DNA of 64,000 nucleotides from Desulfovibrio sp. TomC (GTDB taxonomy: Bacteria > Desulfobacterota > Desulfovibrionia > Desulfovibrionales > Desulfovibrionaceae): contig NZ_JSEH01000005.1 in assembly GCF_000801335.2 (NCBI RefSeq), positions 62,001 to 126,000 of the forward strand, read 5' to 3'. Made by a program: the position numbers and the translations under genes. The notes beneath the pieces are model-generated. The model had not been told where the DNA came from and searched no databases. It saw nothing but the letters and a program-made list of their open reading frames with translations. Every line of letters begins with the position of its first letter. The first letter of the stretch is position 1. This document shows, piece by piece, positions 22,326 to 64,000 of this stretch.

Positions 22326-22400
22326 GCCGTTCGGCGAAATACAACCGGCCGTCCCGGCTGCATCAGGAAACTCCGGCGCAGCCGGGACGGGGACTAGGGC

Positions 22401-47258: not shown

Positions 47259-49619
47259 CTAGCGCCGCAAGAGCCGCAGCCCATTGGCAATGACCAGCAG
47301 GCTGGTGCCCATGTCGGCAAAGACGGCCAAAAGCATGGAGCCATAGCCGAGGAAGGTCAGGGCCAGCACGACTCCCTTCAGGCCAAGGGCCAGGGCGATA
47401 TTTTGCTTAAGCGTCGCAACGGTCGCCCGGGAGAGCCGGATAAAGGCCGCGATCTTGCGCAGGTCGTCGTCCATGATGGCCACGTCGGCCGTTTCGATGG
47501 CCGCGTCCGTGCCGGCCGCGCCCATGGCAAAGCCGATGTCGGCCCGGGCCAGAGCCGGGGCGTCGTTGATGCCGTCCCCGACCATGCCGATCAGGGCCGC
47601 GCCGCCGGCCTGGGCCGCCTGGGCTGCCAGGGCATCCACGGCTGCGGCCTTGTCCTCGGGCAACTGGTCGCCCTTGGCCGCGTCGATGCCGACGGCCTGG
47701 GCAATGGCTGCGGCCGTGTGGGCGTTGTCCCCGGAGAGCATGACGGTTTTGACCCCAAGGGCGTGCAGTTCGGCCACGGCCTCGCGGCTGTGCGGGCGCA
47801 GGGCGTCGGCAGCGGCAAAAAGGGTCAGGACGCCGGTGGCGTCGGCCAGGAGCACGGCTGTCTTGCCGGCGCCCTCCAGGGCGTCCAGCCGGGCTTCGAT
47901 GGCCGGCGAACACAGGCCGAGTTCTTCAATGAGCCGGTGGTTGCCCAGGTGGTAGGGCGTGGCCTCAACCATGGCCCGCACGCCGCGTCCGGGCAGGGCG
48001 GTGAAGTCGGTAACGGGCAGCAGGGCCACGCCGTCCTCGCGTCCGGCCCGGGCCACGGCCTTGGACACGGGATGATCCGACCGGGCGGCCAGACTGACGG
48101 CAATCGACCGGTTGACGCCAGGGTCGCCGGCCAGATTCTCAACATCCGTAGCCACCGGCCGGCCGGTGGTGATGGTGCCGGTCTTGTCTAAGACAAGCGT
48201 GCCGATGGCGTGCCCCTGTTCGAGAAACAGGCCGCCCTTGATCAGGATGCCGCGCCGGGCCGCCGCGGCCAGACCGCTGACCACCGACACCGGGGTGGAA
48301 ATGACCAGGGCGCAGGGGCAGGCGATGACCAGGATGACCAGCGCCTTGTAGATCCACTCGGCAAAGGATGCGCCAAGGACCAGCGGCGGCAGCACGGCCA
48401 CGGCCACGGCGGCCGTAAAAACCGAGGGCGTGTAGAGAGCGGCGAAGCGGTCCACGAACCGCTGGGTGCGGGCCTGTTTGCCCGGCGAGGCCACAACCGC
48501 CCGGGTGATGCGGGCCAGGGTGGAATCGGTGGCCAGGGCCGTGGTCTGGTAGTGCAGTTCGCCTTCCTGGTTGACGCTGCCGGCAAAGAGCGGATCGCCC
48601 GGAGCCTTTTCCACGGGCAGGCTCTCGCCGGTGATGGCCGACTGGTCCAGCGACGACCGGCCGGCCGTGACCATGCCGTCCAGGGCCACGCGCTCACCGG
48701 GCCTCAGGCGCACGGTGGTCCCGACGGGCACGGCGTCGGCCGGGACCACGGCAAAGCTGCCGTCCGTCCGGCCCACGGTCGCTTCCTGGGGGGCCAGGGC
48801 CAACAGGGCGGTGACCGCGTTTTTGGCCCGGGTCAGCGAGGCGGATTCGAGCTTCTCGGCCACGGCAAAAAGGGTCATGACCATGGCCGCCTCGGGGAAC
48901 TGCCCCAGGAACAGTGCGCCGGTTGCAGCCACGCTCATGAGCGCATTGATGTTGAGGTCGCGGTGGCGCAGGGCAATAAGCCCCTTTTTGTAGATGGGCA
49001 GGCCGCTTAAAGCGATGGCCAGCAGGGCGCATCCAGCCGGCAGCCAGGGTGTCCCCAGCCCGAACCATTCCAATAATTCCGAGGCCACAGACAGGACCAG
49101 GGCCACGGCCAGGGTGGGGGAGAGCCAGGACGTCGCCGCCCCGGCGCGGGTGGCCCCCGCCGTCCCCGGGACCACCGGCACGGCGGTCATGCCGAGATCG
49201 GCTATGGCCAAAACGATGGGCCCGGGGTCTGGCAGATCGTGGCAGACAGTCAGTTCCCGGCCAAGCAGGTTAAAGGCCAGTCCCTTGACCCCGGGCATGG
49301 GCTCCAGGGCCTTTCGGAGCATGCGTTCTTCGGTTGGGCAGTCCATGGCTTCGATGCGGTAGGTGTCGGTATGGGCGGCCTGGGGCAGCTCGGCGGACGT
49401 TGTCCCGGCGGTCGGCGCGGCGCAGGAGCCACCGCAACAACAGGGAAACGGATTGACCGCCTCAAGGCGACCCAGGACCGACGGCCCGGCAGCCGGGGCA
49501 TGATCCTGGCCGTGGCTGGAACCAGGCCCCGGGCTGTGATCGTGGGCACGGTCGTGGCTGTGGATATGGCTCTGGGGCTGGTCATGGCCGGGGCCATGGT
49601 CGTGGTCGTTATGGGGCAT
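47259..49619 (-). CDS. zntA: Zn/Cd/Pb-transporting P1B-type ATPase
   Basis: A 786-residue efflux pump. The first ~45 residues are His/Asp-rich (HNDHDHGPGHD, HIHSHDRAHDH), followed by PCCCGGSC and a heavy-metal domain with the zinc/lead-type site MDCPTEE. The pump core has the membrane CPC motif (CPCALVISTPVSVV, the P1B-2 form), the phosphorylation site DKTGTITTG, SDHPVSKA and GDGINDAPALARADI. The start at 49619 is fixed by AGGAGG 6 bp upstream. The divergent MerR gene and shared operator indicate metal-induced expression. It could be named cadA. Confidence 0.93.
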   Translation of the reverse strand: MPHNDHDHGPGHDQPQSHIHSHDRAHDHSPGPGSSHGQDHAPAAGPSVLGRLEAVNPFPCCCGGSCAAPTAGTTSAELPQAAHTDTYRIEAMDCPTEERMLRKALEPMPGVKGLAFNLLGRELTVCHDLPDPGPIVLAIADLGMTAVPVVPGTAGATRAGAATSWLSPTLAVALVLSVASELLEWFGLGTPWLPAGCALLAIALSGLPIYKKGLIALRHRDLNINALMSVAATGALFLGQFPEAAMVMTLFAVAEKLESASLTRAKNAVTALLALAPQEATVGRTDGSFAVVPADAVPVGTTVRLRPGERVALDGMVTAGRSSLDQSAITGESLPVEKAPGDPLFAGSVNQEGELHYQTTALATDSTLARITRAVVASPGKQARTQRFVDRFAALYTPSVFTAAVAVAVLPPLVLGASFAEWIYKALVILVIACPCALVISTPVSVVSGLAAAARRGILIKGGLFLEQGHAIGTLVLDKTGTITTGRPVATDVENLAGDPGVNRSIAVSLAARSDHPVSKAVARAGREDGVALLPVTDFTALPGRGVRAMVEATPYHLGNHRLIEELGLCSPAIEARLDALEGAGKTAVLLADATGVLTLFAAADALRPHSREAVAELHALGVKTVMLSGDNAHTAAAIAQAVGIDAAKGDQLPEDKAAAVDALAAQAAQAGGAALIGMVGDGINDAPALARADIGFAMGAAGTDAAIETADVAIMDDDLRKIAAFIRLSRATVATLKQNIALALGLKGVVLALTFLGYGSMLLAVFADMGTSLLVIANGLRLLRR

Positions 49620-49647
49620 GGACATCCTCCTTGCTACTTCGACTCCG

Positions 49648-49678
49648 ATGAGACACCTTGGAGCTGGTACAGGGTCAA
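49648..49678 (-). promoter_or_regulatory. MerR-type operator-promoter of the metal ATPase
   Basis: A 21-bp imperfect dyad ACCTTGGA-GCTGG-TACAGGGT (49655-49675) lies between -35 TTGACC (49678-49673 on the - strand) and -10 TCTCAT (49653-49648). The 19-bp spacer and the dyad inside it are the hallmark of MerR-activated promoters. Confidence 0.8.
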
Positions 49679-49701
49679 GGGATATTTTCAAGGAGGCGTC
49701 C

Positions 49702-50178
49702 ATGCGTATCGGCGAATTGGCCAAACGGTCGGATTGTCTGCCCGAGACGGTGCGGTATTATGAGCGCGAGGGCCTGCTCCCCAAGCCGGACCGGTCGGAA
49801 GGCAACTACCGGCTCTATGCCGAGGGGCATCTGTCCCGGCTGCTTTTCATCCGCAACTGCCGGGCCTTGGAGATGAGTCTGGGGGAAATCCGGGCGCTTT
49901 TGGCCATAAAGGACGGGGCCGGGGCGGATTGCCGGGAGGTGTGCGCCCTGCTCGAGGCCCATATCGGCCATGTGACCGAGCGGCTGACGCGTCTGGCCGA
50001 TCTTCGGGAGCAGCTTGTCGGGCTGCGGGACCGGTGCGGCGGGGTGACGCCGGTTGCCAGCTGCGGCATCCTGCAGGGCCTGACCGAGCCTGTGCCCGGG
50101 GGGCGTGTTGACGCCAGCCCGGCCGAAGGCCACGTCTGTCTGGGGGATAGCGGCAGCTTGTGCGGCCGGGGGCGCTGA
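49702..50178 (+). CDS. MerR-family metal-responsive regulator (CadR/PbrR-like)
   Basis: A 158-residue regulator with the N-terminal MerR helix-turn-helix (MRIGELAKRSDCLPETVRYYEREGLLP), a dimerisation helix, and cysteines in the metal-binding places of the Cd/Pb branch: Cys in the GADCREVC region (about 75-79) and the C-terminal pair RCGGVTPVASC (about 113-123). An extra Cys-containing tail (GHVCLGDSGSLC) follows. AAGGAGGCG sets the start. It is divergent from the ATPase and shares its control region. Confidence 0.9.
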   Translation: MRIGELAKRSDCLPETVRYYEREGLLPKPDRSEGNYRLYAEGHLSRLLFIRNCRALEMSLGEIRALLAIKDGAGADCREVCALLEAHIGHVTERLTRLADLREQLVGLRDRCGGVTPVASCGILQGLTEPVPGGRVDASPAEGHVCLGDSGSLCGRGR

Positions 50179-50227
50179 GGTCCGGGCGTGCGGCCAAAAC
50201 CCTGGTTCGCCGTCCAGGCGTCGGCCA

Positions 50228-50257
50228 TAAAAAAAGGCGGGACCAGTTGGTCCCGCC
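50228..50257 (-). terminator. terminator of the receiver gene at 50290
   Basis: GGCGGGACCA (50236-50245) and TGGTCCCGCC (50248-50257) form a perfect stem. Seven A precede it on the + strand, giving a U-tract on the - strand, 32 bp past the stop. Confidence 0.85.
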
Positions 50258-50289
50258 CGGAAAAAACCAATGCGGCTGCGGAAGGGACG

Positions 50290-50646
50290 TTACTCGCCCA
50301 GGGCCTTTTTCACGGCCACGAGCACCGCTTCCGGCTCAAAGGGTTTGCGGATGGCGGCAACCGCCTTGCGGATGGATTGGTCATGGCCGTCCAGTCCGCT
50401 GATGACGATGACCGGAATGTCCTTGAATTCTTCTTTCTGCGAATACTTGCGGTAAAAGCGCGGCCCCCACTCGTTGGGCATTTCCAGGTCCAGGGTGATG
50501 CAGTCCGGGCGTTCTTTTTCCAGGACTTTGAGCGCGACTTCGCCGTCGGACGCGCTGCAGGTGTCGTAGCCGTTGTCGGAAAAAAGGGTCGTCAGATACG
50601 CGATGATCTGCGGATCATCGTCGACCACCATGATTTTCTTCGCCAT
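50290..50646 (-). CDS. single-domain response regulator (receiver 1)
   Basis: A 118-residue stand-alone receiver: acidic pocket VDDDP (8-12), phosphoacceptor Asp in ITLDLEMP (about 53), the switch Ser in IVISGLDG, and Lys in IRKPFEP. It has no output domain. It lies 141 bp after receiver 2 on the same strand, near the haem-type kinase. It is less close to the other two receivers of the region (it lacks GLKYVIP). Confidence 0.93.
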   Translation of the reverse strand: MAKKIMVVDDDPQIIAYLTTLFSDNGYDTCSASDGEVALKVLEKERPDCITLDLEMPNEWGPRFYRKYSQKEEFKDIPVIVISGLDGHDQSIRKAVAAIRKPFEPEAVLVAVKKALGE

Positions 50647-50787
50647 ACCCGCCTCCTTGTGGAATTGGCCCGGAGGATGGCTTCGTCCCGGGCGTGCCGT
50701 ATCGCATCCTGTTGGTATCTACCGCGAATCACGTCTGTTGCCAACCGTGAATTGCACCGATCCCCCAATCCAGGCCTGACGCCGTTT

Positions 50788-51147
50788 TTAGACCTCGGGC
50801 GGCCCCAGGATGTCACGGAGTGCGGCCAGAAGGGCCAGCCGGTCGATGGGTTTGTCAAAGACTGCCCGAGCGCCGGGAATGACATATTTGAGGCCAGGAT
50901 GGCCGGTGATGACCACAATGGGGATGTCGCGGCCGGATTTCTCCAGGGCACGGTTGAATTTGGGACCGGTCATATCCGGCATCTCCAGATCCAACGTGAT
51001 GGCGTCCGGGCGTTCGGATTCAATAGCGGCCAGGGCCAGCCTGCCGTTTCGGGCGGAGATGGTGTCGTAGCCTTCGTCGGAAAATACGTCTTCCAGGTAG
51101 GCGACAATATCCGGATCGTCGTCCACGATCAGGATTTTCTGAGCCAT
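50788..51147 (-). CDS. single-domain response regulator (receiver 2)
   Basis: A 119-residue stand-alone receiver with VDDDP, the phosphoacceptor in ITLDLEMPD, VVITGHPGLKYVIP and DKPIDR. The stretch FNRAL plus ITGHxGLKYVIP is also found in the receiver at 62416, so the two are paralogues placed on opposite sides of hmc. It lies 97 bp after the kinase gene on the same strand and is its likely partner. Confidence 0.93.
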   Translation of the reverse strand: MAQKILIVDDDPDIVAYLEDVFSDEGYDTISARNGRLALAAIESERPDAITLDLEMPDMTGPKFNRALEKSGRDIPIVVITGHPGLKYVIPGARAVFDKPIDRLALLAALRDILGPPEV

Positions 51148-51244
51148 GATGGGGGCCTCCGGCGGCGTTGGTGTGCCTTGCCGTTATGGAACGGATTGCC
51201 GGCGGCAGGCAAGGAAAAAACGTCGGCGTCGGCAGGGGAATGCC

Positions 51245-53593
51245 TCAGGTGCGTGTGACTCCGGGCTCCTGCCAGACCGGCAGGCGGATGGTGAACATCG
51301 CGCCGCCTTCGGGACCAGGGGCGGCCACAATGTCGCCGCCGTAATCCTTGATGATTCCGTAGCTGATGGACAGCCCCAGGCCGGTTCCCTTGCCCACTTC
51401 CTTGGTGGTGAAAAACGGCTCGAAGATGCGTCCGAGCACCTCCGGGGGGATGCCGGCCCCGTTGTCGGCGATGCTCGCGGTCACGAATTGCCGCTCCCCG
51501 ATCGTTTCGACGCCGGCCGTGATGGCGATGCGCTTTTCACCCGGCCGGCTGGCGGAGCCGTAGTGCTCGTCCACGGCGTCGCGGGCGTTAAGGAGCAGAT
51601 TCATAAACACCTGTTCCAGCGGGTTGGCCTGGGCGGCAACCGTGGGCAGGCCTTCGGGAATGTCGAAGGCGACCTCGATGTTGCGTACCTTGAGCTGCTG
51701 GGAAAAAAGCTCGAACGTGCGGTGCAGGACCGTCCCCATGTCCACGGCGGTCAGGTTGCGGTCGGCTTTGCGGCCAAATTCCCGCATGTGGTTGATGATG
51801 CCGGTGGCCCGGGCGATGTGGCGGCTGATCCCCTCGGCCATTTCGGTGAGCGTGGCCTGATCCACGCACTGGCCCTTGCGCACCTTGCGCACCAGCAGAT
51901 CGGAAATCGTCTGGATGACGGTCATGGGCTGGTTGAGTTCGTGGGCCACGCTGGTGGACATTTCGCCAAGGGTCGCCATCTTGCTGGCCTGGATGAGCTG
52001 CTGTTCGGTCTCCAGGCGGTTGGTGATGTCGGTGACCGAGGCCAGATAGACCTGGCTGCCGGGAAAGGCGGCGGTGGAGACGCGCAGCGCGGCAAAGAAA
52101 TGCTGGCCGTTCTTGCGGCGGTGGCGCGCCCGGTCGATGGGGCGTTCGGCCCGGATGGCCGCCTCAAAGGGGGCAAGGTCGGGTTCGTCGAAAAGGGCCA
52201 GAAACGACGTGCCGAGCAGTTCTCCCGGTTCGTAGCCGTACAGCGCCTGGGGCCGGGTGTTGCATTCGAGGATGGTCAGGTCGTCCAGGCTCAGCACGAA
52301 AAGGGCGGTGGGGATGCAGCTGAAGATGGCTTGGTATTTCTTGCGCGAGCGTTCCAGTTCCTCTTCCAGGAACTTGCTTTGGGAAATGTCCAGGCTGATT
52401 TCCATGACCGAGGTGACCTTGCCGGACTCGTCGGTCATGGGCGAGGTGCTGACGAACAAGGTCCGTTTGCAGCCGTCGCGGTCGAGGGTGATCTCTTCGG
52501 TGGAATGGGGCAGGCCGTCCTCAAAGGTGCGGATGACCGGGCAATTGTCGCACGGCTCCTCGCGGCCCTTGTAGGCCTTGTAGCAATACTGGCCGGGATG
52601 GACGTGAAACTCGTCGGCAAAGGCCTGATTGTAGCTGAGAAGACGCAGGTTGCTGTCCTGCACCGTGATGGTGCAGGGCACGTGTTCGAAAAGATCCTGG
52701 TAGCGGTTTTTCTGGCGCACCAGCTCGGCCTGTTTGGAGAGGACCTCCCGGCCCATGCTGTCGATGGCCCGGCCCAGCTCGCCCAGCTCGTCGGCCTGGC
52801 GGATGTCCACCCCCCGGAAGGTGCGCCCGGCCGCAATGGTCCGGGTGGCCTGGATCATGGCCCGCACGGGGCGGTTGACCAGCAGGTGGGTAAACAGAAA
52901 CAACACCAGGAAGGTGCCGCCGGCCACGGCCAGGGCAGCCAGGAAGTTGCGTTCGGTGTAGTTGGCCAGGGTGGCCTCGTTGGCGGCCTGGGACACGGTG
53001 ATGTCGAGCAGCCCGAGAATTTTCTTGTCGGCCGGGTGGACGTGGCAGGCGTCGTTGACGCAGGCCGGTTCGTTCTCGATGGGTCGCAGAATGCCGATGC
53101 AGGGCTGGCCGGATTCATCGGTAAAAAAACGGGTGCGTTCGCGCAGGGCCAGATGGACCTGGGGCGGGGCCGTGCGGTGGCAGACGTAGCAGCCCTCTTC
53201 CTTGATGTCGGTGAGCTCGTCGATCTCCGAGATCAGGTTGGAATACTTGATCTGGCCCTTTTTATTGTAGACGCGGATGGACAGGATGCCCTGCTGGGTG
53301 CCGATGCTTTTGATGATTTCCCGGATGGTGTCCGGGGCATAGGTCAGCATGGCGTAGTGCAGGCCAAGATTGATGGTGTTTCCCAGCCGGTTCATGTCCG
53401 ACATGGTGGCTTCGGTGGTCAGGGTCTTCATGGCGTTGATGTTGAGCGACGACCACAGAAAAAAGAAAAACATCAAGGCCACGCCGGAGACGATGGCCAG
53501 CTTGGTAATGAGCGAACAGCGGATGGTGCGCAACAGGCGCGGCAGGGCCTGGGCCAGATCGGCCAGCCCCAGGGGCAGGAAACGGGGCCTCAT
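51245..53593 (-). CDS. membrane histidine kinase with di-haem c periplasmic domain and two PAS domains
   Basis: A 782-residue sensor. Membrane segments at about 31-50 and 218-238 bound a ~165-residue periplasmic domain with two haem c sites: CYVCH (135-139) and CVNDACH (178-184, the C-x4-CH form). A HAMP domain and two PAS domains follow; the first PAS has a Cys cluster ([18 protein letters not shown]). The kinase has its H-box in [14 protein letters not shown]-box [10 protein letters not shown], and G-boxes DNGAGIP and [14 protein letters not shown]. It probably reads periplasmic redox state or a haem ligand. Two receivers follow. Confidence 0.9.
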
Positions 53594-53686
53594 GGCGCAA
53601 CCCTCCTTGTCCTTCAGACGGCCGAGGGGCGGCGTCCACCCCGGTATGGACCGGCCCGGGCGGGTCCGGCCTTGGGACGCCGGACG

Positions 53687-54787
53687 TCAGCCGGCGGCCA
53701 CGATCACGGAAAAGGCGCTGGCCCCGGCCCAGACGCCGTCGCCTTGGCCCAGATGCATGTCGCGCAAGGCATCCAGTCCCACCGTGGCGGAAAGCTTGGT
53801 GCCGTCGGTCAGGACCACCACCACTTCAGCCGCGTCCCCCCCCTGAGTCACCCGTTCCACCACCCCGCGAAAGCGGTTTTCCGCCCCGGTTGCATCTTCG
53901 GCCGGCGCGGCGTCCAGGGTCACCCACGGGGCCTTGATCCGGGCCGTGGCCAGTCCCCCCTCCCGCAGGCCGAGACTCTCCAGACTTTTGGTGGAGATGA
54001 TGGCGGTCAGCAGATGGCCGCCCAGGGTGCGCACGGTCAGGCGCGACTGGATCTCGCCGATCTCGACCGTGGCCACTTTGCCGAAAAAGGTGTTGTGCAC
54101 CCCGGCCGAGCGCCGGTTCTCCCGGTCCAGAAAATGCTTCTCCATCCGTTTTTGTTCTTCCTCGGGCAGATCGAGGAAGGCGGCGGTGGAGTTGGCGGTC
54201 AGATGCCCCAGAATGCGCTGGACAACGGTGAGCGGCACGCCGTTGTGCAGCAGTTCCACGGCCCTGGAACGGCGCAGGGTGTTGGGGTTGGCCAGATGCT
54301 TGGGGATGCCGGCCTCACTGGCCCGGTCATAGATGACCCGGCGCATGTAGCCTTGGTCGAGATGGAAAATACCCCCGCGGTGGGGGGTGTAATCCGGGTC
54401 GCGCAACAGCTGCTTGAGTTCGGCGTGCAGCTCGCCCGGCAGATAGACCTCGCGCCGGGGTTTGGCGTCCTCGCCCTTGCCGCCGCCAAGGAGCACCTTG
54501 CGGTAAGCCAGGACGAAGTCGGTCCGGTCATCGATGGCCAGGATTTCTCCGAGTTTGGCCCCGGTTGCACGCAACAGTAAAAAGACCAGTCTGGCTCGGT
54601 TTCGGGAGACGACCGAACGTTTGCCTTTGGCCTTGGACACCCAGGCGGTGAAGGCGGCGTCGAGGCGCTGCATCTGTTCGGCCGAGAGGAAATTCGGCTC
54701 GTGCGGCTCGGCCGGGGCCACGGAGGAGTCATCGTGCATGGGCTGTCCCATATCATCCAGGATATGCTCAAGGTCAATGCCGCTCAA
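53687..54787 (-). CDS. tunR: TunR-type tungstate-responsive regulator
   Basis: A 366-residue protein with a tyrosine-recombinase-like DNA-binding domain (about 30-235) and two C-terminal TOBE/Mop oxyanion domains (about 240-300, 310-366: VEIGEIQSRLTVRTLGGHLLTAIIS and RFRGVVERVTQGGDAAEVVVVL). The recombinase active site is degraded: ATGAKLGEI has Lys for the first Arg, NTLRRS has Asn for His, and the Tyr position reads Phe (STAAFLDL). This matches TunR, which controls Mo/W homeostasis in sulfate reducers. I choose the TTG at 54787 behind GGAGG. Confidence 0.87.
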   Translation of the reverse strand: MSGIDLEHILDDMGQPMHDDSSVAPAEPHEPNFLSAEQMQRLDAAFTAWVSKAKGKRSVVSRNRARLVFLLLRATGAKLGEILAIDDRTDFVLAYRKVLLGGGKGEDAKPRREVYLPGELHAELKQLLRDPDYTPHRGGIFHLDQGYMRRVIYDRASEAGIPKHLANPNTLRRSRAVELLHNGVPLTVVQRILGHLTANSTAAFLDLPEEEQKRMEKHFLDRENRRSAGVHNTFFGKVATVEIGEIQSRLTVRTLGGHLLTAIISTKSLESLGLREGGLATARIKAPWVTLDAAPAEDATGAENRFRGVVERVTQGGDAAEVVVVLTDGTKLSATVGLDALRDMHLGQGDGVWAGASAFSVIVAAG

Positions 54788-55059
54788 CGGGGCCTCCGGG
54801 TTTCGTTTATCACGAAATGAAAAAAGAAGGTGACAATTTTCACAAAAGCGGTTAGTTTTATTGTCACGCAAGTTTTGCAACTCGTGACAAGTTTGGCTGA
54901 CACTGTCAAGAGACAGTTTCTGCCAAAGCTGCCTGCGGGTTGTGTTGGGCAGGAACTCACGCGACCACGGACCAAGGGAGGTGCGCGGGCAGGAGCACGA
55001 CGTCTATTGCCAACCGGGGAAGGGCGAACGCAACACGTAAGCAGAGGGTCGAAGAAGGT
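54788..55059. other. 272-bp divergent control region between tunR and hmcA
   Basis: AT-rich and full of dyads. Besides the TunR-like sites it holds ACTGTC-AAGA-GACAGT (54902-54917) nested in TTTGGC...GCCAAA (54892-54927). I cannot place -35/-10 hexamers with confidence on either strand. hmcA starts at 55060. Confidence 0.6.
54830..54890. promoter_or_regulatory. candidate TunR binding sites
   Basis: A 30-bp dyad TTGTCACG-N14-CGTGACAA (54861-54890) has the length reported for TunR sites and a XerC/D-like two-arm layout. A further half-site GTGACAAT (54830-54837) faces ATTGTCAC (54860-54867). The sites lie 74 bp before tunR and 170 bp before hmcA. Confidence 0.7.
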
Positions 55060-56826
55060 ATGAAAAACGGAAAACGGCGCATGAGACAGCTGCTGGCCGT
55101 CCTGGCCATTTGTGGCGTGGGCGGTTTGTCCGCCTTGCCGGCCAGCCGGGCAATGGCCAGCCAGCCAGGTAGCGACAAACAGCGGGCCGACATCGTCACC
55201 ATTGACGGAATGCAGGCCTATGGTTCCCTGTCGCAGCCCAAGGTGGTCTTTCTCCACGACAAGCACACCACAGCGTTGGGCAAACAAAAAGATTTTTACA
55301 AGAAAGAATGCGGCACCTGCCACACGTCCGACAAGGACGGCGTGATGCAGCTGGGCTTCAAGCGCGACGGTGCGCCTGTGTCCGGCGAAAAGCTGCGCGA
55401 CGTCTATCACAATGGCTGCATCAGCTGCCACAAGGACATGGCGGCCGCCGGACAGAAGACCGGCCCCACCGATGTCCAGTGCAAAGGCTGCCACAACGCC
55501 ACGCCGGATGTCGCTTCCAACTGGCAGCCCATCACCGTGGACAAGCGCCTGCACTACCGGCACGCCGCCACTCAGGAAAAAGCCGAGAACAAATGCGGCT
55601 CCTGCCACCACATTTACAGCGAAAAGGCCGGCAAGACCATTGCCGCCCCCAAGCCGGAAGACGTCCCCGGGTCCTGCTCCTACTGTCACGGCGAGACCAC
55701 GACCGTGGACGCCAAGCGTCAGCCCAAGGAGATCCGCTCCCTGCGTCTGGCCGCTCACGGCGAGTGCGTGACCTGCCACAAGGCCACGGCCGCTGCCGGC
55801 AAGGATGTGGCCACCGGTCCGGTCACCTGCGCCGGCTGCCATGGCCCGCTGGACCAGAAGGCCATTGCCGAAACGTCGCTTAAAAAGGTTCCCCAGGGAG
55901 CCGATCTGCGCATCAAGCGCGGCCAGCCCGATCTGGTCATGGTGCGTCCGGCCGTGGCCGAAGCGCCCCTGATCGTTGACGGCAAGCCGGTCAAGCCCTA
56001 CGCCGGCATGCCGGCCGTGCCTTTTGACCACAAGTCCCACGAAGCCCAAAACGAGACCTGCGTTTCCTGCCACCATGCCTCCCTGACGTCCTGCGCGGCC
56101 AAGTGCCACACGCCGGCCGGCAATAAGGACGGCGGCTTCGTCACCCTGGAAGCGTCCATGCACAAGGTCGGCGCCTCCCAGAGCTGCGCCGGCTGCCACG
56201 CCGTCCTCCAGAAGAAGCCCGAGTGCGCCGGCTGCCACGACTCCCGCGTCAAGGGCGTTGGCGACGTTGCCCAGTGCGGGTCCTGCCACGTCAAGCCCGA
56301 AGGCGACCTCAAGGAAGCCGCGGCCGTCATGATGGCCAAGCCGGCCGCCAAGGAAACCGCCGCCGCCGAAGCCGACATGGCCAAGAAGCTCCTGGCCGGC
56401 AAACGCGACGTCACGGCCACCTTCCCGGCCGAGGACATCCCCGAGACCGTGACCATCGGGTCGCTGTCCAAGGACTACGAGCCGTCGGTCCTGCCGCACC
56501 GCAAGATCGTCCTGTCCATGCTCGCCGGCATGAAGGACAGCAAGCTGGCCGGGGCCTTCCACGCCGCCGATGCGGCCGTCTGCCAGGGCTGCCACCACAA
56601 CAGCCCGGCTTCGACGACTCCGCCGCGGTGCAGCAATTGCCATCAGGCCGTCGAAACCACCACTGCTTCGGCTCGTCCGGCGCTCAAGGCCGCCTACCAC
56701 ACCCAGTGCATGGGCTGTCATACGTCGATGGGAATTGCCGGCAAGGTTGTGGACAAGGCTGCGGATGCCAAGCCTGTTCCTGTGGCCACGGATTGCACCG
56801 GTTGCCACAAGGACAAGAAGAAATAG
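55060..56826 (+). CDS. hmcA: high-molecular-weight cytochrome c HmcA, 16 haems
   Basis: A periplasmic multihaem cytochrome that takes electrons from hydrogenase/type I cytochrome c3 and passes them to the membrane Hmc complex. The 588-residue precursor has a signal peptide (about 1-34, ending RAMA) and 16 haem motifs: 15 CxxCH and one CxxxCH (CAAKCH, the ninth). This is the count of HmcA. There is a haem-free insert at about residues 270-310 and another at 420-500. AGAAGGT precedes the ATG at 55060. Confidence 0.95.
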
Positions 56827-56854
56827 GACCCAAACCAGCAGAGGTCTCGCTACG

Positions 56855-57907
56855 ATGAAACGAAGACACTTTCTGGGCTTGCTGGGCGCAGCCGGGGTGA
56901 CCATGGGCACGGGCGTTTCGGCCCAGGCCGCCTCCAGCGCCGATGTCAAGGGCCTGCCCAATGCGGGCGGCGTGCTCTTTGACGCCACGCGCTGCATCGG
57001 CTGCCGCAAATGCGAAGCGGCCTGCAACCAGGTCAATGAGCTGCCCAAACCGGCTAAGGCCTTTGACGATCTCTCGGTGCTCGATACCATTCGCCGCACC
57101 GATGCCAAAACCTATACCATCGTCAACAAATACGTTCCCGAGGCCGGCAAGCCGCCGGTCTTTCGCAAGAGCCAGTGCAACCACTGCATGGAGCCGGCCT
57201 GCGCTTCGGCCTGCTTCGTGGCGGCCTTTAAGAAGACGGAAACCGGCGCGGTCGTGTACGACGAGTCGGTCTGCGTCGGCTGCCGCTACTGCATGGTGGC
57301 CTGTCCGTTCAACATCCCGACCTACGAATACGACAAGGCGTTTACCCCGCGCGTGATGAAATGCACCATGTGCTACCCGCGCCTGCTCGAAGGCAAACTG
57401 CCGGGTTGCGTCGAGGCCTGCCCCAAAGAGGCGTTGCTCTTCGGCAAGCGCCGCGAACTGCTCAACATCGCCTGGGACCGCATTGGCGGGACTCCGGGCC
57501 GCTACGTCGAGCATGTCTACGGCGAGCGGGAGATGGGCGGCACGAGCTGGCTCTACATCGCGCCCAAGCCGTCCTTTGCCGCCATCGGCATGGATGAGAA
57601 CCTGGGCACGGCCTCGGCTCCGGAACTGACCTCCGGGGCGCTGGCCGCCGTGCCGGCCGTGGCCGGCATCTGGCCGGTGCTTTTGACCGGCCTGTACGCC
57701 ATCACCAAGCGCAAGGACAAGATCGCCGAGGCCGAGAAGCAGGCTGCCGTGGCCGCTGCCATTGCCACGGCCAGCGCCGATGCCGCCGCCAAACTCTCCG
57801 AAGAGCTGGCCAAGGCCGAGGTCGCCAACAAGCGGCGCATCGAGGTCGAGGTCACAAAGGCCCTTGAAGCCGCCGCCAAGGCCGCCGAAGAAGGGGAGGA
57901 CGCCTAA
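56855..57907 (+). CDS. hmcB: Hmc complex iron-sulfur protein HmcB
   Basis: A 350-residue ferredoxin-like subunit with a twin-arginine leader ([10 protein letters not shown] at 2-11), so it faces the periplasm. Four cysteine clusters for [4Fe-4S] centres: [35 protein letters not shown] and CTMC...CVEAC. A C-terminal membrane segment ([18 protein letters not shown]) anchors it, followed by an Ala/Glu/Lys helical tail of ~65 residues. It would pass electrons from HmcA to HmcC. It overlaps hmcC by one base (TAATG). Confidence 0.94.
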
Positions 57908-59082
57908 TGTCGACGGAACACACCAAAAGCGGTACGCTGTTTACGCCGTGGAACATCCTGGCCGGCATTATCCTGGCCGCCGGCGTCGTGGCCACCATCA
58001 TGCGCTTTACCATGGGCATCGGCTCGGTCACCAACCTCTCGGACAACAACCCCTGGGGCATCTGGATCGGCTTTGACCTCCTGTGCGGCGTCGCCCTGGC
58101 CGCCGGCGGCTACACCACCTCGGCCGCCTGCTACATCTTCGGGTTCAAGCGCTTTCACGGCGCGGTGCGCCCGGCCATCCTGACCGCCTTCCTGGGCTAC
58201 GCCCTGGTCGTCTTTGCCCTCAACTACGACGTGGGCCGGCCCTGGCGGCTGCCCTATCCGATCTTCTACCAGCAGGGCACCACGTCGATCCTGTTTGAAG
58301 TCGGCCTGTGCGTGTTCATCTACCTGACGGTGCTTTTCCTCGAATACCTGCCGGTCGCTCTCGAGTGGAAGCGGGGCTTTGACAAGTACCGGGGCATCCT
58401 TATCAAGCTCACCATGGGGCTGACCATCTTCGGCGTCATCCTCTCGACCCTGCACCAGAGCTCGCTTGGCGCGCTGTATCTCATCGTCCCGTCCAAGCTG
58501 CACCCGCTCTGGTATACCCCGTACCTGCCGGTGATGTTTTTCATGTCGAGCATGTTTGCCGGCATGTCCATGGTCATCACCGAGGGCACGATCTCGCACA
58601 AGTACTTCCATCATAAGATGGACGGCGAGTACAACGAGGGCTACCTCGACCTGCAGTTCGCCTTTGCCAAGGCCTCGGCCTGGGTCATGGCCGGCTATCT
58701 GGCCATGAAGGTGCTCGGTCTGGCCATGGACAACCGCTGGCCCTACCTGTTCACCGGTTACGGCGCCTGGTGGCTCTTCGAGGTCGTCGGCTTCGTGGTC
58801 CTGCCCTGCTACTGCTACGCCGTGGGCTACCGCGATCGCAACATCGGACTGGTCCGGGTGGCTGCCCCCTGGACCGTTATCGGCATCATGCTCAACCGTT
58901 TCGACGTGAGCCTCATTGCCTTTAACTGGCAGTTGCCCAGCGCCGATCGCTACTTCCCGAGCATTGGCGAGATCACCATCTCACTGTTCGTGATCACCCT
59001 TGGCATCATCGCCTTCCGGTTCATCGTCACGCGGATGCCGATCTTCTACGTCCACCCGGCTTATAAAGACTCGTCCCACTAG
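57907..59082 (+). CDS. hmcC: Hmc complex NrfD-like membrane subunit HmcC
   Basis: A 391-residue integral membrane protein with about ten hydrophobic segments of the NrfD/PsrC family (NPWGIWIGFDLLCGVALAAGGY, AVRPAILTAFLGYALVVFALNYDVGRPWRLPYP, both quoted in part). The family conducts electrons or quinol chemistry across the membrane. It shares its first base with the hmcB stop. Confidence 0.94.
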   Translation: MSTEHTKSGTLFTPWNILAGIILAAGVVATIMRFTMGIGSVTNLSDNNPWGIWIGFDLLCGVALAAGGYTTSAACYIFGFKRFHGAVRPAILTAFLGYALVVFALNYDVGRPWRLPYPIFYQQGTTSILFEVGLCVFIYLTVLFLEYLPVALEWKRGFDKYRGILIKLTMGLTIFGVILSTLHQSSLGALYLIVPSKLHPLWYTPYLPVMFFMSSMFAGMSMVITEGTISHKYFHHKMDGEYNEGYLDLQFAFAKASAWVMAGYLAMKVLGLAMDNRWPYLFTGYGAWWLFEVVGFVVLPCYCYAVGYRDRNIGLVRVAAPWTVIGIMLNRFDVSLIAFNWQLPSADRYFPSIGEITISLFVITLGIIAFRFIVTRMPIFYVHPAYKDSSH

Positions 59083-59099
59083 GATAGGGGAACTACGCC

Positions 59100-59234
59100 A
59101 TGTTTAATACGCTGCAAGACCTGATGCTCCACAACAAGAGCATCACCTACGTGCTCATGGGCGTGCTGCTGATCTGCTTTGTCGGATTCTGGCACTTCCT
59201 CACGGACAAGGAAGAGCGTAAACGCCGCTACTAG
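59100..59234 (+). CDS. hmcD: small Hmc membrane subunit HmcD
   Basis: A 44-residue protein starting MFNTLQDLMLHNKSITYVLM with one membrane segment (ITYVLMGVLLICFVGFWHF) and a basic end (KEERKRRY). Its size and position, between hmcC and hmcE, match HmcD. AGGATAGGGG precedes the ATG at 59100, 17 bp after hmcC. Confidence 0.9.
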   Translation: MFNTLQDLMLHNKSITYVLMGVLLICFVGFWHFLTDKEERKRRY

Positions 59235-59267
59235 GCTGATCGGACCGCGATCACCAAGGAGAACACC

Positions 59268-59945
59268 ATGTATGCATTCCTGACGGGTCCGATGCTGTGG
59301 CTGTCGTTTGCCATATGCATCCTCGGCTGCGCCTGGCGCGCCTACAAATACGTCAAGGGCTTAAGTTGGCAGCTTGACCGGGTGGCCTACGGCCACTACC
59401 CCGATCTGGCCTTCAAAGGCGCGATGAAGTCCATCTTCCATTGGCTCATCCCGTTCGCCTCGTGCAGCTGGCGGGCCAAGCCGGTCTTTGCCACGGCCTT
59501 CTTCCTGCTGCACATCGGCCTTGTCGTCGTGCCGCTGTTCCTGTTTGGCCACGTCATGATCGTGGCCGAACGCTTCGGCCTGTCCTGGCCGACCATGCCG
59601 GCCGGACTGGCCGATGTCCTGACCATCCTGGCCGTGTTGGCCGGCGTGTTCATCCTGCTGCGCCGCTTTGCCTTAAGCGAAGTGCGCATCATCACCACGC
59701 GCCACGATCTGATGATCATGGCCATCAGCCTCGCCCCCCTGGTGACCGGCTTTGTGGCCGCCCACCAGTCCGGCGACGGCAATGGCTGGCTTCTGGCCCA
59801 TATCATCACCGGCGAAATCTGGCTGATTGCCGTGCCCTTTACCAAGCTGTCCCACGCGGTGCTGTTTTTCTGCTCCCGGGCTCAGATCGGGATTGATTTC
59901 GGCGTCAAACGCGGCGGCCAGCGCGGCAGCGGCATCGTCTGGTAA
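59268..59945 (+). CDS. hmcE: Hmc complex cytochrome-b-like membrane subunit HmcE
   Basis: A 225-residue membrane protein with five segments and conserved His residues in them (LLHIGLVVVPLFLFGHVMI, LLAHIITGEIW, FTKLSHAVLFF), as in NarI-type di-haem cytochromes b. It would hold haem b and link the periplasmic electron path to the cytoplasmic HmcF. AAGGAGAACACC sets the start. Confidence 0.92.
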   Translation: MYAFLTGPMLWLSFAICILGCAWRAYKYVKGLSWQLDRVAYGHYPDLAFKGAMKSIFHWLIPFASCSWRAKPVFATAFFLLHIGLVVVPLFLFGHVMIVAERFGLSWPTMPAGLADVLTILAVLAGVFILLRRFALSEVRIITTRHDLMIMAISLAPLVTGFVAAHQSGDGNGWLLAHIITGEIWLIAVPFTKLSHAVLFFCSRAQIGIDFGVKRGGQRGSGIVW

Positions 59946-59981
59946 ACCGGCCGGCGGGACATCGCCAAGGAGTGAAACGTC

Positions 59982-61388
59982 ATGCCTGAAGGGATTTTTT
60001 GTAATAAGCGGCCGATCAACACGGAGGAGGAGCTCAAGGCTCTGCTCTCCGATACGCGCGGCACGAAATACTACGAGGAAATGCTGTCGCTGGAGGTTGA
60101 CCGCGAGAAATTGTGGGCCACCATCCAGAAAACCTGTAAATCGCGCACCCAGACCTGGCTCGACGTCTGCGCCCGCTGCGGGTTGTGCGCCGACTCCTGC
60201 TTCCTGTATCTGGTCAACGACTGCAAGCCCGAGCAGGTGCCGTCGTACAAGATCCAGTCCACGCTTGGCGAAATGGTTCGCCGCAAGGGCGATGTGGACA
60301 ACGAGTTCATGCGCCATGCCATGGAAGTGGCCTGGTCCCAGTGCACCTGCTGCAACCGCTGCGCCATGTACTGCCCGCACGGCATCGATATGGGCGTCAT
60401 GATGGGCTACACCCGCGGCCTGCTCTATTCCCAGGGCTTTGTTCCCTGGGAGTTGAAGATTGGCGCGGGCATGCACCGCGTCTACCGCGCCCAGATGGAC
60501 GTCACCACCGAAGATTGGGTGGAGACCTGCGTGTGGATGGAGGAGGAGCAGCAGGACGATTGGCCGGGCCTTGAAATCCCGGTGGACAAGGAAGACGCGG
60601 ACATCATGTACACCTGCAATGCCCGCGAACCCAAACACTATCCCGAGGATCTGGCCGAAGCGGCCATCCTGTTCCATATTGCCGGCGAGAATTGGACCGT
60701 GCCCAGCGAAGGCTGGGAACAGACCAGCCTGTCCATGTTTGCAGGCGACTGGGAAGCCTGCAAGCTGCAGGTGGAAAACGTCTACGCCGCCATCGACCGC
60801 CTGAAACCCAAACGGGTCATCGGCACCGAATGCGGCCACGCCCACCGGGCCACCGTCATCGAAGGCCCGTACTGGGCCGGACGTCCCGACGGCCAGCCGC
60901 CTGCGCCGTACATCCACTACGTGCAGTGGGTGGCCGAGGCGCTTCGCACCGGCAAGCTCAAGATCGACCCGGCCAAGCGGATCAAGCAGACCGTCACCTA
61001 CCAGGACTCCTGCAACTACATCCGCAACTGGGGTCTGGCCGAGACCGCCCGCGAGATCCTCTCCTACCTCGTGGAACCGGGCTATCTCGTTGAAATGACG
61101 CCCAACAAAGAGCATAACTACTGCTGCGGCGGCGGCGGCGGCTTCAACGGCATCGGCAAGTTCCGGCCCCAGCGCAACAAGGCGCTGTTGACCAAGCGCG
61201 ATCAGATTTTGGCCACCGGAGCCAAGCTGGTCATTGCGCCCTGCCACAACTGCTGGGACGCCATCCGCGACCTCGAGGAAGAGTACCACATCCACATTGA
61301 CTGGTCCTTCCTCAAGCCCTTGCTGATCAAGATGGTCATCGTGCCAGACCACCTCAAGCCCCAGGAAGAAGCGGGCGACGAGGAATAG
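59982..61388 (+). CDS. hmcF: Hmc complex cytoplasmic iron-sulfur/CCG subunit HmcF
   Basis: A 468-residue HdrD-like protein. It has two [4Fe-4S] motifs ([11 protein letters not shown]...CKP at about 63-82; [12 protein letters not shown] at about 117-128) and two CCG-type regions ([10 protein letters not shown] with [10 protein letters not shown]; an earlier CGHAH... partial and PCHNC later), the layout of heterodisulfide-reductase-like catalytic subunits. It would receive electrons on the cytoplasmic face. No membrane segment. CAAGGAGTG precedes the ATG. Confidence 0.93.
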
Positions 61389-61444
61389 GACGGGGTGCGC
61401 CAGTGCAGGCAACCTCCACCTCTAACCTGAAATAGGGGTTTGGA

Positions 61445-62374
61445 ATGTTTGAAAAGATACTCTTTGCGACCACAGGTTCGCCAGGCTGCGACAGCGCCGC
61501 CCGCGTGGCCTTCGACATGGCCCGCCAATACGGCTCCAAGCTGACGCTGTTCCACGTGCTCGGCATTCCGGGCAAGGGCGACAGCAATGTGGTGATCGAT
61601 ATCCGCAGCGGTGAAGAAGTCGACGTCGATGCCGAGTACATCGAGGGCGTGGCCGAAGAGCTGCGCACCACCTATGCCAAACAGCTCGAAGGCCTTTCCG
61701 GCGTCGAACTGGAAGTGGCCGTCGGCGTGCCGTCGCGCGAAGTGCTGCGCATCGCCCGGGCCAAGGACGTCGATATGATCGTCCTGTGCGGTCCGGCCGA
61801 AGGCCAGGAAGCCGGCTTTTACAAGCGCGGCGTGGTCGGCGACACCCTGCGCAAGGTGGCCAAGGCCGCCCGGTGCCCGGTTTTGACCGTCAGCCGCCCG
61901 TCGGCCTCCTTTTGGGGCGGGTTTTCCAATATCGTCTTCGCCACGGACTTCTCCAAGGCGTCCGAATCGGCCTTCCAGTTCGCCAAGACCGTGGCCCAGG
62001 CCGTGGACGGAGAACTGCACCTGTTTAACTGCGTGGATTTGAGCCGCTTCCAATCGGCCATTGCGCTGACCCAGGATGGCATCGAGGCCAAGCTGGCCGA
62101 AGCCCGGCGTCGGCTGCACCACGAATATGCCTTGCAACTTGGGGATTTCAAACGGTTTACTTCCGAGGTATGGGAAGGCACGCCGTACGTCGAAATCGTC
62201 AAGTTCGCCCGTGAACGCCAGGCCGACCTGATCGTTCTGGCCCACCACGCCCGCGACGTCGATCCCGACGAGCGCCCCTTCGGCAGCACGCTTGAGCAAG
62301 TCATCGTGCGGGCTTCCTGCCCGGTGGTGAGCGTCAACCGTCCCGACAAGCTGCCCCAGGCGGCCGAGGCGTAA
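61445..62374 (+). CDS. tandem universal stress protein
   Basis: A 309-residue protein made of two UspA domains (first: MFEKILFATTGSPGCDSAARVAF ... LCGPAEGQEAGFYKRGVVGDTLRKV; second: NIVFATDFSKASESAFQFAKTV ... LAHHARDVDPDERPFGSTLEQVIVRASCPVVSV, quoted in part). The G-x2-G-x9-G(S/T) ATP-binding pattern is partly kept in each. It lies 56 bp after hmcF on the same strand, where Desulfovibrio vulgaris has the rrf1-rrf2 regulators. Its role with Hmc is unknown. Confidence 0.9.
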   Translation: MFEKILFATTGSPGCDSAARVAFDMARQYGSKLTLFHVLGIPGKGDSNVVIDIRSGEEVDVDAEYIEGVAEELRTTYAKQLEGLSGVELEVAVGVPSREVLRIARAKDVDMIVLCGPAEGQEAGFYKRGVVGDTLRKVAKAARCPVLTVSRPSASFWGGFSNIVFATDFSKASESAFQFAKTVAQAVDGELHLFNCVDLSRFQSAIALTQDGIEAKLAEARRRLHHEYALQLGDFKRFTSEVWEGTPYVEIVKFARERQADLIVLAHHARDVDPDERPFGSTLEQVIVRASCPVVSVNRPDKLPQAAEA

Positions 62375-62415
62375 GCCCCCACACCTCCCGGGGACGCAAA
62401 AGGAGAAAGGGAACC

Positions 62416-62772
62416 ATGCCCAAGACCATCCTTATCGTGGACGACGATCCCAATATCCGGGAATACCTGGAGACCCTGCTCACCGACAACGGATACGAGA
62501 CCATCGTGGCCGAGAACGGGGAAAAGGCCCTGGAAGTGCTGGCCGCCCAAACACCCGACCTGATCACGCTCGACATCGAGATGCCGGACAAGACCGGTCC
62601 GTGGTTCAACCGGGCGCTGCAGCGGGGCAAGACCTACGCCAATATCCCGATCATTGTCATTACCGGCCATACGGGGCTTAAATACGTCATCCCCAACGCC
62701 GTGGGTTCGCTGGGCAAGCCCTTTGAACAAAAGGAACTGCTCGATCTTGTGCGCGAAACCATAGGCTCGTAA
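62416..62772 (+). CDS. single-domain response regulator (receiver 3, Rrf1-like position)
   Basis: A 118-residue stand-alone receiver: VDDDP (8-12), phosphoacceptor in ITLDIEMPD, IVITGHTGLKYVIP and GKPFEQ. It shares FNRAL and ITGHxGLKYVIP with receiver 2 (50788), not with receiver 1 to the same degree. It stands 42 bp after the Usp gene behind AAAAGGAGAAAGGG. Its position downstream of hmc recalls rrf1 of D. vulgaris, but I cannot show orthology. Confidence 0.92.
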   Translation: MPKTILIVDDDPNIREYLETLLTDNGYETIVAENGEKALEVLAAQTPDLITLDIEMPDKTGPWFNRALQRGKTYANIPIIVITGHTGLKYVIPNAVGSLGKPFEQKELLDLVRETIGS

Positions 62773-62778
62773 TCCCGA

Positions 62779-62815
62779 TTCCCCGGGGCGCGGCAACCGG
62801 CCGTGTCCCGGGGAA
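62779..62815 (+). terminator. hairpin between receiver 3 and the receiver-PAS gene
   Basis: TTCCCCGGG and CCCGGGGAA form a 9-bp stem around 19 bases, 7 bp past the receiver 3 stop. No U-tract; may attenuate or stabilise the hmc-side transcript. Confidence 0.5.
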
Positions 62816-62979
62816 ACGGATCATGAGCCACAAAACGCGGCTTGGCCCGCCCTGACCGCACACGCGGTCCAGGCGACGCCGGATCGTCCCGGGCTGTACT
62901 GGGGACGTCGGACGCCTGCCGGTTCCGGTCTCACGACTGCTGCCGGCGAAGCGGCCAAGGCGACACAGGACCCACGGCC

Positions 62980-64000
62980 ATGAGCGAACGCCTTTTGCTC
63001 GTCGATGACGAGGAAGATATCCGCCGCTTCCTCGGCATGTTCCTCGCCGACCTGGGCTATGAGGTCCATGCCGCCGAGAACGGCGCCCAGGCCCTGGAAA
63101 TGTTCGATGCCGTCGATCCGGCCATTGTCCTGACCGACATCAAGATGCCGGGCATGGACGGCCTGGAGCTGCTCAAACGCATCAAAGCCCACGCCCCGGA
63201 AACCGAAGTCGTCATGATCTCCGGCCACGGGGACATGGATCTGGCCATCGGCTGCCTGCAGTACGAAGCCGCTGATTTCGTCACCAAGCCCATCAATCAC
63301 GACATTCTGGACGCGGCCTTAAAGCGCATCGAAGAGAAGCTGGCCCTGCGCCGCCAACTCAAGCAGTACACCCAGAATCTGGAAAAACTCGTCCAGGAAA
63401 AGTCCCACCGCGTGGTCGAACTGGAGCGGCAGGTCGCTGCCGGCCAGATGGTCGAGACCATGTGCCAGGCCATCTCCGGCCTGTCGGCCGATTTTGGCGA
63501 CAAGGCCGGCTACTTCAATGAAATGCCGTGCTTTGTGGCCGTGCATAACCGCTCGCTCGAAGTCGTGGCCACCAACCAGCTCTACAAGGACCGCCTGGGC
63601 GAAATGGTCGGGCACCACAGCTGGGAAGTCTACGTGGGCCAGGCGCTTCGCGGCTTTGACGGCCCGGTCTGGAAGACTTTTGAAACCGGCAAGGGCCAGC
63701 GTTCCCGCGAGACCATGCTGTGCAAAAACGGCCGGGAACTGCCGGTCATGGTCCACACCTCGCCCATCAGCACCGTCGACGGCAAGCCCGAGCTGGTTCT
63801 GGAAATGGCTGTTGACGTCAGCGAAATCAAACGCCTCCAGGAAGAACTGCGGGTCACCCAGCAGAAGTACATGGACCTTTTCGAGGCCACGCCCTGCTAT
63901 ATTGCCGTGCGCGACCGCGACTACCGCATTGTGGCCAACAACACGCTTTTCAAGGAAGATTTTGGCGAAGGCGTTGGCAAACTGTGCTATGAAATTTTCC
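62980..64000 (+). CDS. response regulator-PAS sensor protein, runs off the window end
   Basis: An open frame from ATG 62980 to the window end (340 codons, no stop). A receiver domain comes first (LLVDDEEDIRRF, phosphoacceptor in VLTDIKMPGMDG, MISGHGDMD, TKPIN), then a coiled coil (about 115-165), a PAS domain (NEMPCFVAVHNRSLEVVATN) with PAC-type end, and the start of a second PAS (YMDLFEATPCYIAVRDRDYRIVANN). A histidine kinase domain probably follows. A 9-bp stem (62779-62787 with 62807-62815) separates it from receiver 3. Confidence 0.88.
   Translation, partial: MSERLLLVDDEEDIRRFLGMFLADLGYEVHAAENGAQALEMFDAVDPAIVLTDIKMPGMDGLELLKRIKAHAPETEVVMISGHGDMDLAIGCLQYEAADFVTKPINHDILDAALKRIEEKLALRRQLKQYTQNLEKLVQEKSHRVVELERQVAAGQMVETMCQAISGLSADFGDKAGYFNEMPCFVAVHNRSLEVVATNQLYKDRLGEMVGHHSWEVYVGQALRGFDGPVWKTFETGKGQRSRETMLCKNGRELPVMVHTSPISTVDGKPELVLEMAVDVSEIKRLQEELRVTQQKYMDLFEATPCYIAVRDRDYRIVANNTLFKEDFGEGVGKLCYEIF

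Follow-up and report, generated by a model that had tools for sequence, protein, structure and literature searches.

The tunR-A/hmc Locus

The window considered here is the whole stretch of 64,000 nucleotides of Desulfovibrio sp. TomC DNA, in which a 272-bp intergenic region separates two divergent genes, tunR-A and hmcA (Table 1). The regulator gene tunR-A starts with TTG, preceded by GGAGG, and is followed 93 nt downstream on the same strand by the gene for a sensor histidine kinase. Heme binding by this kinase is suggested by its motifs. On the other side, hmcA opens the operon hmcABCDEF.

Table 1. Features of the tunR-A/hmc region, in window coordinates.
Feature	Position	Strand	Remarks
Sensor histidine kinase	51245-53593	minus	CYVCH and CVNDACH (c-heme-type, CX4CH) motifs; PAS domains
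tunR-A	53687-54787	minus	366 aa; XerC/D-like DNA-binding domain and two TOBE/Mop domains
TunR-type 30-bp site 1	54807-54836	none	TTATCACG-N14-GGTGACAA; candidate operator
Conserved block	54828-54847	none	AGGTGACAATTTTCACAAAA, GTGA-N6-TCAC; overlaps right half of site 1
TunR-type 30-bp site 2	54861-54890	none	TTGTCACG-N14-CGTGACAA; candidate operator
hmcA, 16-heme cytochrome	55060-56826	plus	NF045713, 592.8 bits (cut-off 400)
hmcB	56855-57907	plus	NF045715, 535.8 bits (cut-off 420)
hmcC	57907-59082	plus	NF045714, 669.3 bits (cut-off 550)
hmcD-like small ORF	59100-59234	plus	44 aa; assigned by position alone
hmcE	59268-59945	plus	NF045716, 347.8 bits (cut-off 275)
hmcF	59982-61388	plus	NF045711, 924.9 bits (cut-off 750)
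Single-domain response regulator	62416-62772	plus	behind hmcF and Usp gene; rrf1-like position

Two 30-bp inverted repeats are found in the intergenic region. Site 2, spelled TTGTCACG-CAAGTTTTGCAACT-CGTGACAA, is a perfect 8-bp dyad with zero mismatches and a 14-bp spacer, which confirms the dyad claimed by a first-pass annotation of this DNA. Its distance from the hmcA ATG is 169 bp, in agreement with the approximately 170 bp given there. Site 1 lies just 19 bp from the tunR-A start codon, and the starts of the two sites are 54 bp apart. The annotation had also proposed a third half-site pair, 54830-54837 with 54860-54867. These octamers (GTGACAAT and ATTGTCAC) do form a literal inverted repeat, but it joins the facing ends of two adjacent 30-bp sites; site 1 is the better reading.

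The unbiased dyad test is weak, as dinucleotide shuffling of the intergenic region produced some 8-bp dyad (gap 4-24) in 30 of 300 trials. The dyad pattern, with at most three mismatches, occurs twice in the window versus 0.19 times expected, and 2/100 shuffles gave two. It is the agreement with the TunR-type motif, not the dyad as such, that exceeds chance. When the matrix described below was applied to shuffled versions of the intergenic region, a score of at least 22.4 was obtained in 1/2000 shuffles and a score of 28.1 in 0/2000. No sigma-70-like promoter was found by a scan of positions 54700-55100. Hand-made -35/-10 assignments were dropped, since TTGTCA-N18-TGACAA is already part of the dyad.

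The TunR-Type Motif

A search of 14 genus genomes allowed up to one mismatch to the pattern TRTCACR-N14-YGTGAYA. It yielded 69 sites versus nine for a reversed control, and seven versus two in the TomC genome alone. Of the 69 sites, 34, all outside hmc, served to train a matrix. This training set was chosen to exclude the 14 sites at hmc and a further 21 (a second copy in G119, and sites that occur in one genome or look coding). The matrix arms are partly circular, as the training sites came from a pattern modeled partly on the window dyads; of the scores of the two window sites, only 3.3 and 4.3 bits come from the spacer. Over 63,973 window positions, these two sites rank first (28.1 and 22.4), and the next best position scores 9.7.

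Three dyads with related half-sites precede tunR-C, a paralogue of tunR-A in the same genome (31.9, 28.4, and 14.9), and the half-site TGTCACG/CGTGACA is common to the tunR-A and tunR-C sites. The matrix also caught a site outside the training set, 196 bp before modB in the mod operon of this genome. The dyads of the window thus share their motif with tunR-C and mod genes of the same genus, which bears out the description of the first dyad as TunR-like and 30 bp long. The pattern recurs at four kinds of places, namely tunR-A/hmcA, tunR-C, pairs of TonB-dependent receptor and TonB genes, and a small gene without an assigned function (20 further places were fetched).

In the mod operon of TomC, two TunR-type sites (28.2 and 14.0) lie 80 bp apart before modB (L134:7634-7741), and the genes upstream of this operon have a nitrogenase-related look, as judged by eye.

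Conservation of the Arrangement and the Sites

The genes tunR-A and hmcA are divergent neighbors in 14/14 genus genomes, which are related and represent few independent events, and also in G032, which belongs to another genus. In each of the 14, the divergent neighbor is a multiheme hmcA homologue, confirmed by HMM for the six genus genomes in the hmcA sample. In a tree of the first 373-400 residues, the hmcA products of these 15 loci form one clade (100/100), with G032 as the sister of the genus.

Phylogenetic footprinting of the region, which the first-pass annotation had suggested as a check, was carried out on these loci. Site 2 is recognizable in all 15, and its distance to the hmcA ATG ranges from 145 to 178 bp. 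Both full sites are present in eight of the 15, that is, in seven genus genomes and G032, with scores of 20.3-28.2. A full site 1 is found in all seven genomes of the first genus clade (that of the window included) and in G032, where the two full sites are 53 bp apart. In the other seven genus genomes, which make up the second clade, site 1 lacks its left half and site 2 is weaker (11.2-15.7). Four chance hits of at least 11.2, the highest being 17.0, occur in approximately 191 kb of other sequence, so the assignment of site 2 in the second clade owes as much to position and alignment as to score. Among hmcA loci of other genera, 0/30 reach a score of 11 (a cut chosen after the data had been seen) within 500 bp upstream, and the highest value is 8.1. 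One of these loci, L110, has a best matrix score of -10.9 and no palindrome.

As a minor observation, G119 and G123 (L045 and L048) carry extra CGTGAC-N10-CGTGA direct half-site repeats closer to tunR-A.

TunR-A and Its Paralogues

TunR regulators are derived from XerC/D recombinases, sense tungstate or molybdate through TOBE domains, and are reported to bind a 30-bp motif; the tungstate-responsive TunR of D. vulgaris was reportedly described by Kazakov et al. in 2013. The profile matches of TunR-A (PF00589, 33.3 bits; PF03459, 79.7 bits; TIGR00638, 83.7 bits) include no family model named TunR, and the name used for this gene is based on its architecture and on the TunR literature. The C-terminal half aligns with ModE structures (1h9r, 1o7l), and the N-terminal half matches recombinases by sequence (PF00589; 5hxy, 1a0p). 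These matches support the earlier claim that a XerC/D-derived di-TOBE protein is encoded next to hmc.

The relation to known proteins is one of likeness in parts. As in XerC and XerD, the site consists of two inverted arms around a center, but the recombinase catalytic set is lost: TunR-A has K-N-R-H-F, versus R-H-R-H-Y in the Xer-like row L005, with Lys78, Asn169, and Phe204 in place of Arg I, His II, and Tyr. With ModE, TunR-A shares the C-terminal di-Mop/TOBE domain, but its DNA-binding domain is recombinase-like and its Ser and Arg ligand positions are changed. With TunR, it shares the XerC/D-like domain joined to a di-TOBE part, 30-bp dyad operators (predicted here), and a gene position beside a putative target. 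It differs in that its neighbors are hmc and the c-heme-type kinase gene, and not mod, TSUP, or other Mo/W transport genes, and in that the ligand residues are altered in the 15 hmc-linked members.

Three TOBE-bearing TunR-like genes are present in the TomC genome: A, B (49% identity to A), and C (36%), of which tunR-C sits near modC/modA/modB-like genes. In a tree of 94 rows of TunR-like proteins, none of them a characterized TunR, TunR-A falls among the TunR-like proteins encoded at mod loci. All 15 TunRs linked to hmc fall into a single clade (100/100) beside TunR-B (93/84), with a branch of 0.65. The TunR of G032 falls with the first genus clade on a long branch, which disagrees with the hmcA tree.

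A further open frame of 227 aa in the same genome (L004, G000:C14:89249-89860) encodes a TunR-like DNA-binding domain, with 41% identity over residues 21-215 and no match to the TOBE part.

The Oxyanion Pocket

Six ligand positions were compared, which we take to be the equivalents of S126, R128, T163, S166, K183, and A184 in ModE. TunR genes that are not linked to hmc encode S-R-T-S-K-A at all six positions in 78/78 cases, a count from which L005 (a Xer-like recombinase) and weaker TunR matches are left out and in which hmc linkage was judged by eye from coordinates. Both TunR-B and TunR-C are intact in this respect. In the hmc-linked TunRs, ligand residues are altered in 15/15, and the equivalent of Ser126 is always Gly or Asp. 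Their signatures are GHSSKA (three, the window included), GYSSKG (three), GHSSKG (one), DRSHRP (five), DCSHRP (two), and DVSTKA (one). In the second clade, Lys has become Arg and Ala has become Pro. The window protein has GHSSKA versus SRTSKA; its Thr-to-Ser change is conservative, and Ser268, Lys285, and Ala286 are kept. For the tungsten protein Tub (PMC11980592), the ligands given are Ser4, Lys60, the backbone of Arg6 and of Ala61, and Ser40 of the neighbor, and the Tub site is described as very similar to those of Mop and ModE.

Divergence is also faster in the TOBE half than in the DNA-binding half. Between the two genus clades, in three genome pairs, the identity of TunR-A is 63-66% over the DNA-binding half but 42-43% over the TOBE half. 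The corresponding values are 87-90% and 80-85% for TunR-B, and 75-80% and 78-83% for TunR-C.

Given these changes, TunR-A has probably lost the usual W/Mo response, and it may sense tungstate less well or not at all. Loss of oxyanion binding by the window protein is likely but not certain, because Ser268, Lys, and Ala remain, and this protein may still bind an oxyanion. The first-pass annotation had proposed that TunR could tie the Hmc conduit to W/Mo status. The hmc half of that proposal is well supported, though unproven, but the W/Mo half is weakened by a pocket altered in 15/15 hmc-linked TunRs versus 0/78 others. W/Mo formate dehydrogenases feed the periplasmic cytochrome pool, and on this ground TunR-A could be a normal tungstate/molybdate sensor that couples hmc to W/Mo supply. 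The TOBE/ModE similarity, the three retained residues, and the motif shared with mod operons speak for such a sensor, but the loss of the Ser126 equivalent throughout the clade, the Arg and Pro of the second clade, and the intact pockets of all other TunR genes make it unlikely. The tungstate transporter genes of the window point the same way, since its tupA has no TunR-type site within 500 bp. A literature search on hmcA with molybdate in Desulfovibrio found nothing.

The tupA-like (345.7 bits) and tupB-like (264.6 bits) genes just mentioned lie with a mobB-like gene at 21492-24525 of the window, and both scores are under the curated cut-offs.

Rrf2 and the Kinase Gene

To our knowledge, regulation of the Hmc conduit in sulfate reducers has been little studied outside D. 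vulgaris. In that species, Rrf2 is described as the repressor of the hmc operon (PMC1274295). Rrf2 linkage was assessed at 60 hmcA loci with a 15-kb rule (G073, which is split in two pieces, was left out). An Rrf2 match lies within this distance at no fewer than 39 of the 53 loci from other genera, but, among the matches listed, at 0/7 loci of the genus and G032. The remaining 14/53 other-genus loci have no nearby Rrf2 among the matches listed, and false negatives are possible among the 21 unlinked loci, as several contigs are short. At E 1e-6, rrf2 has no match in window positions 48001-64000, the part behind the response regulator included, or in the next 10 kb. The same holds for stretches behind the hmc operon of three genus genomes and for two from the hmc surroundings of G032 (the stretches searched being window 48001-64000, L017, L217-L219, L158, and L220). 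Rrf2-family genes are present elsewhere in the TomC genome, and these could act on hmc in trans. TACC-N-GGTA palindromes precede hmcA at 16/30 other-genus loci versus 0/15 tunR-linked loci.

The kinase gene connects the two kinds of loci. It follows tunR-A in 13/13 genus loci (L048 is outside this set) and in G032, and it adjoins rrf2 in 13 of 19 hmc regions from other genera (six genera). There, rrf2 stands directly before the kinase gene in g5, g8, and g11, as tunR-A does here, and directly after it in g3, g36, and g44. TunR-A thus occupies the seat held by Rrf2 in several genera, since both adjoin the same c-heme-type kinase. The two regulators are alike in this placement within the hmc locus but belong to unrelated families. 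The kinase occurs without an rrf2 match in one of the 19 regions (G036), and rrf2 occurs without the kinase in the fetched stretch in five (G011, G085, G028, G021, and G029). Because of these five regions and the 14/53 loci lacking a listed Rrf2 match, the ancestral arrangement is not a uniform one.

A Proposed Replacement of Rrf2 by a TunR Paralogue

Taken together, the sequence data support the sites, support the link to hmc well without proving it, and weaken the link to W/Mo. We consider it reasonably probable that a TunR paralogue took the control of hmc over from Rrf2 and that it probably no longer reports W/Mo normally. The two sites would be operators for TunR-A in a control region shared by tunR-A and the downstream kinase gene on one side and hmcABCDEF on the other. 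TunR-A, with its recombinase fold and no catalytic set, most likely binds both. It would repress its own gene through site 1 and set hmc transcription through site 2. The binding, the self-repression, the setting of hmc expression, and the direction of regulation are all predictions from sequence. Autoregulation and control of hmcA by TunR had been suggested by the first-pass annotation, and both fit the conserved divergent architecture.

In the ancestor of the genus and the genus of G032, a duplicated TunR would have replaced Rrf2 beside the c-heme-type kinase. The oxyanion pocket would have eroded after this replacement, so that the input is probably not ordinary tungstate/molybdate sensing. 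It is plausible, and put forward tentatively, that a copy of a metal-sensing TunR arose by duplication, lost the oxyanion pocket, and supplanted Rrf2 as the regulator dedicated to the transmembrane electron conduit Hmc and the kinase gene in a non-homologous swap. The recombinase-derived fold would then respond to a different input, perhaps one conveyed by the kinase or set by the redox state. If this is true, one lineage has rewired Hmc with a repurposed recombinase-fold regulator, this conserved locus is a clear example of one regulator being replaced by a non-homologous one, and a protein built like a W/Mo sensor is predicted not to sense W/Mo normally.

The sites might instead control tunR-A and the kinase gene only, with hmc as a mere neighbor that has its own promoter further downstream. 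The closeness of site 1 to the tunR-A start codon and the similar position of sites beside tunR-C are in keeping with such autoregulation. It is improbable, however, since the site kept in every tunR-linked locus is site 2, at 145-178 bp from hmcA (a weak argument), and since both rrf2 (in the stretches examined and among the matches listed) and the TACC/GGTA palindromes are missing here. It is also conceivable that the sites are used mainly by TunR-B or TunR-C and that TunR-A competes or partners with them. Both paralogues could bind the same sites, given the half-site shared with tunR-C, and both retain the six pocket residues. This possibility is a rather remote one, as the sites track the linked tunR-A (15/15, versus 0/30 hmcA loci of other genera).

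The last alternative concerns the GTGA-N6-TCAC block, which presumably resembles CRP/FNR or Rex sites. It is nearly unchanged in the 14 genus loci, and AGGTGACAAnnTTCAC is present in 14/14, including the loci in which site 1 has only its right half. The palindrome is absent from G032 and from the 450 bp before hmcA in 29/29 other-genus loci. It is very unlikely that a regulator of the CRP/FNR or Rex type uses this block as the principal operator, with the TunR dyads in a secondary role: AGGTGACAAnnTTCAC does outlast the loss of the site 1 half, but the palindrome is confined to the genus in this comparison and overlaps site 1.

Further TunR-Type Sites

Several sites away from hmc deserve mention. 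Upstream of tunR-B in some second-clade genomes (L058-L061), a dyad TCACG-N12-CGTGA has the same half-site with a shorter spacer. In five genomes (L136-L140), a TunR-type site precedes the gene for a protein of approximately 100 aa with the motif DPLRxLVExLCCxVYLD; a Pfam search with the L138 copy gave no match. TunR-type sites also stand beside TonB-dependent receptor and/or TonB genes in 6/14 genus genomes (L141-L144, L146, and L147), where a Pfam check covered L142, L143, and a further receptor at L145. Outer-membrane uptake of Mo/W under TunR control is a possible explanation for these TonB-linked sites.
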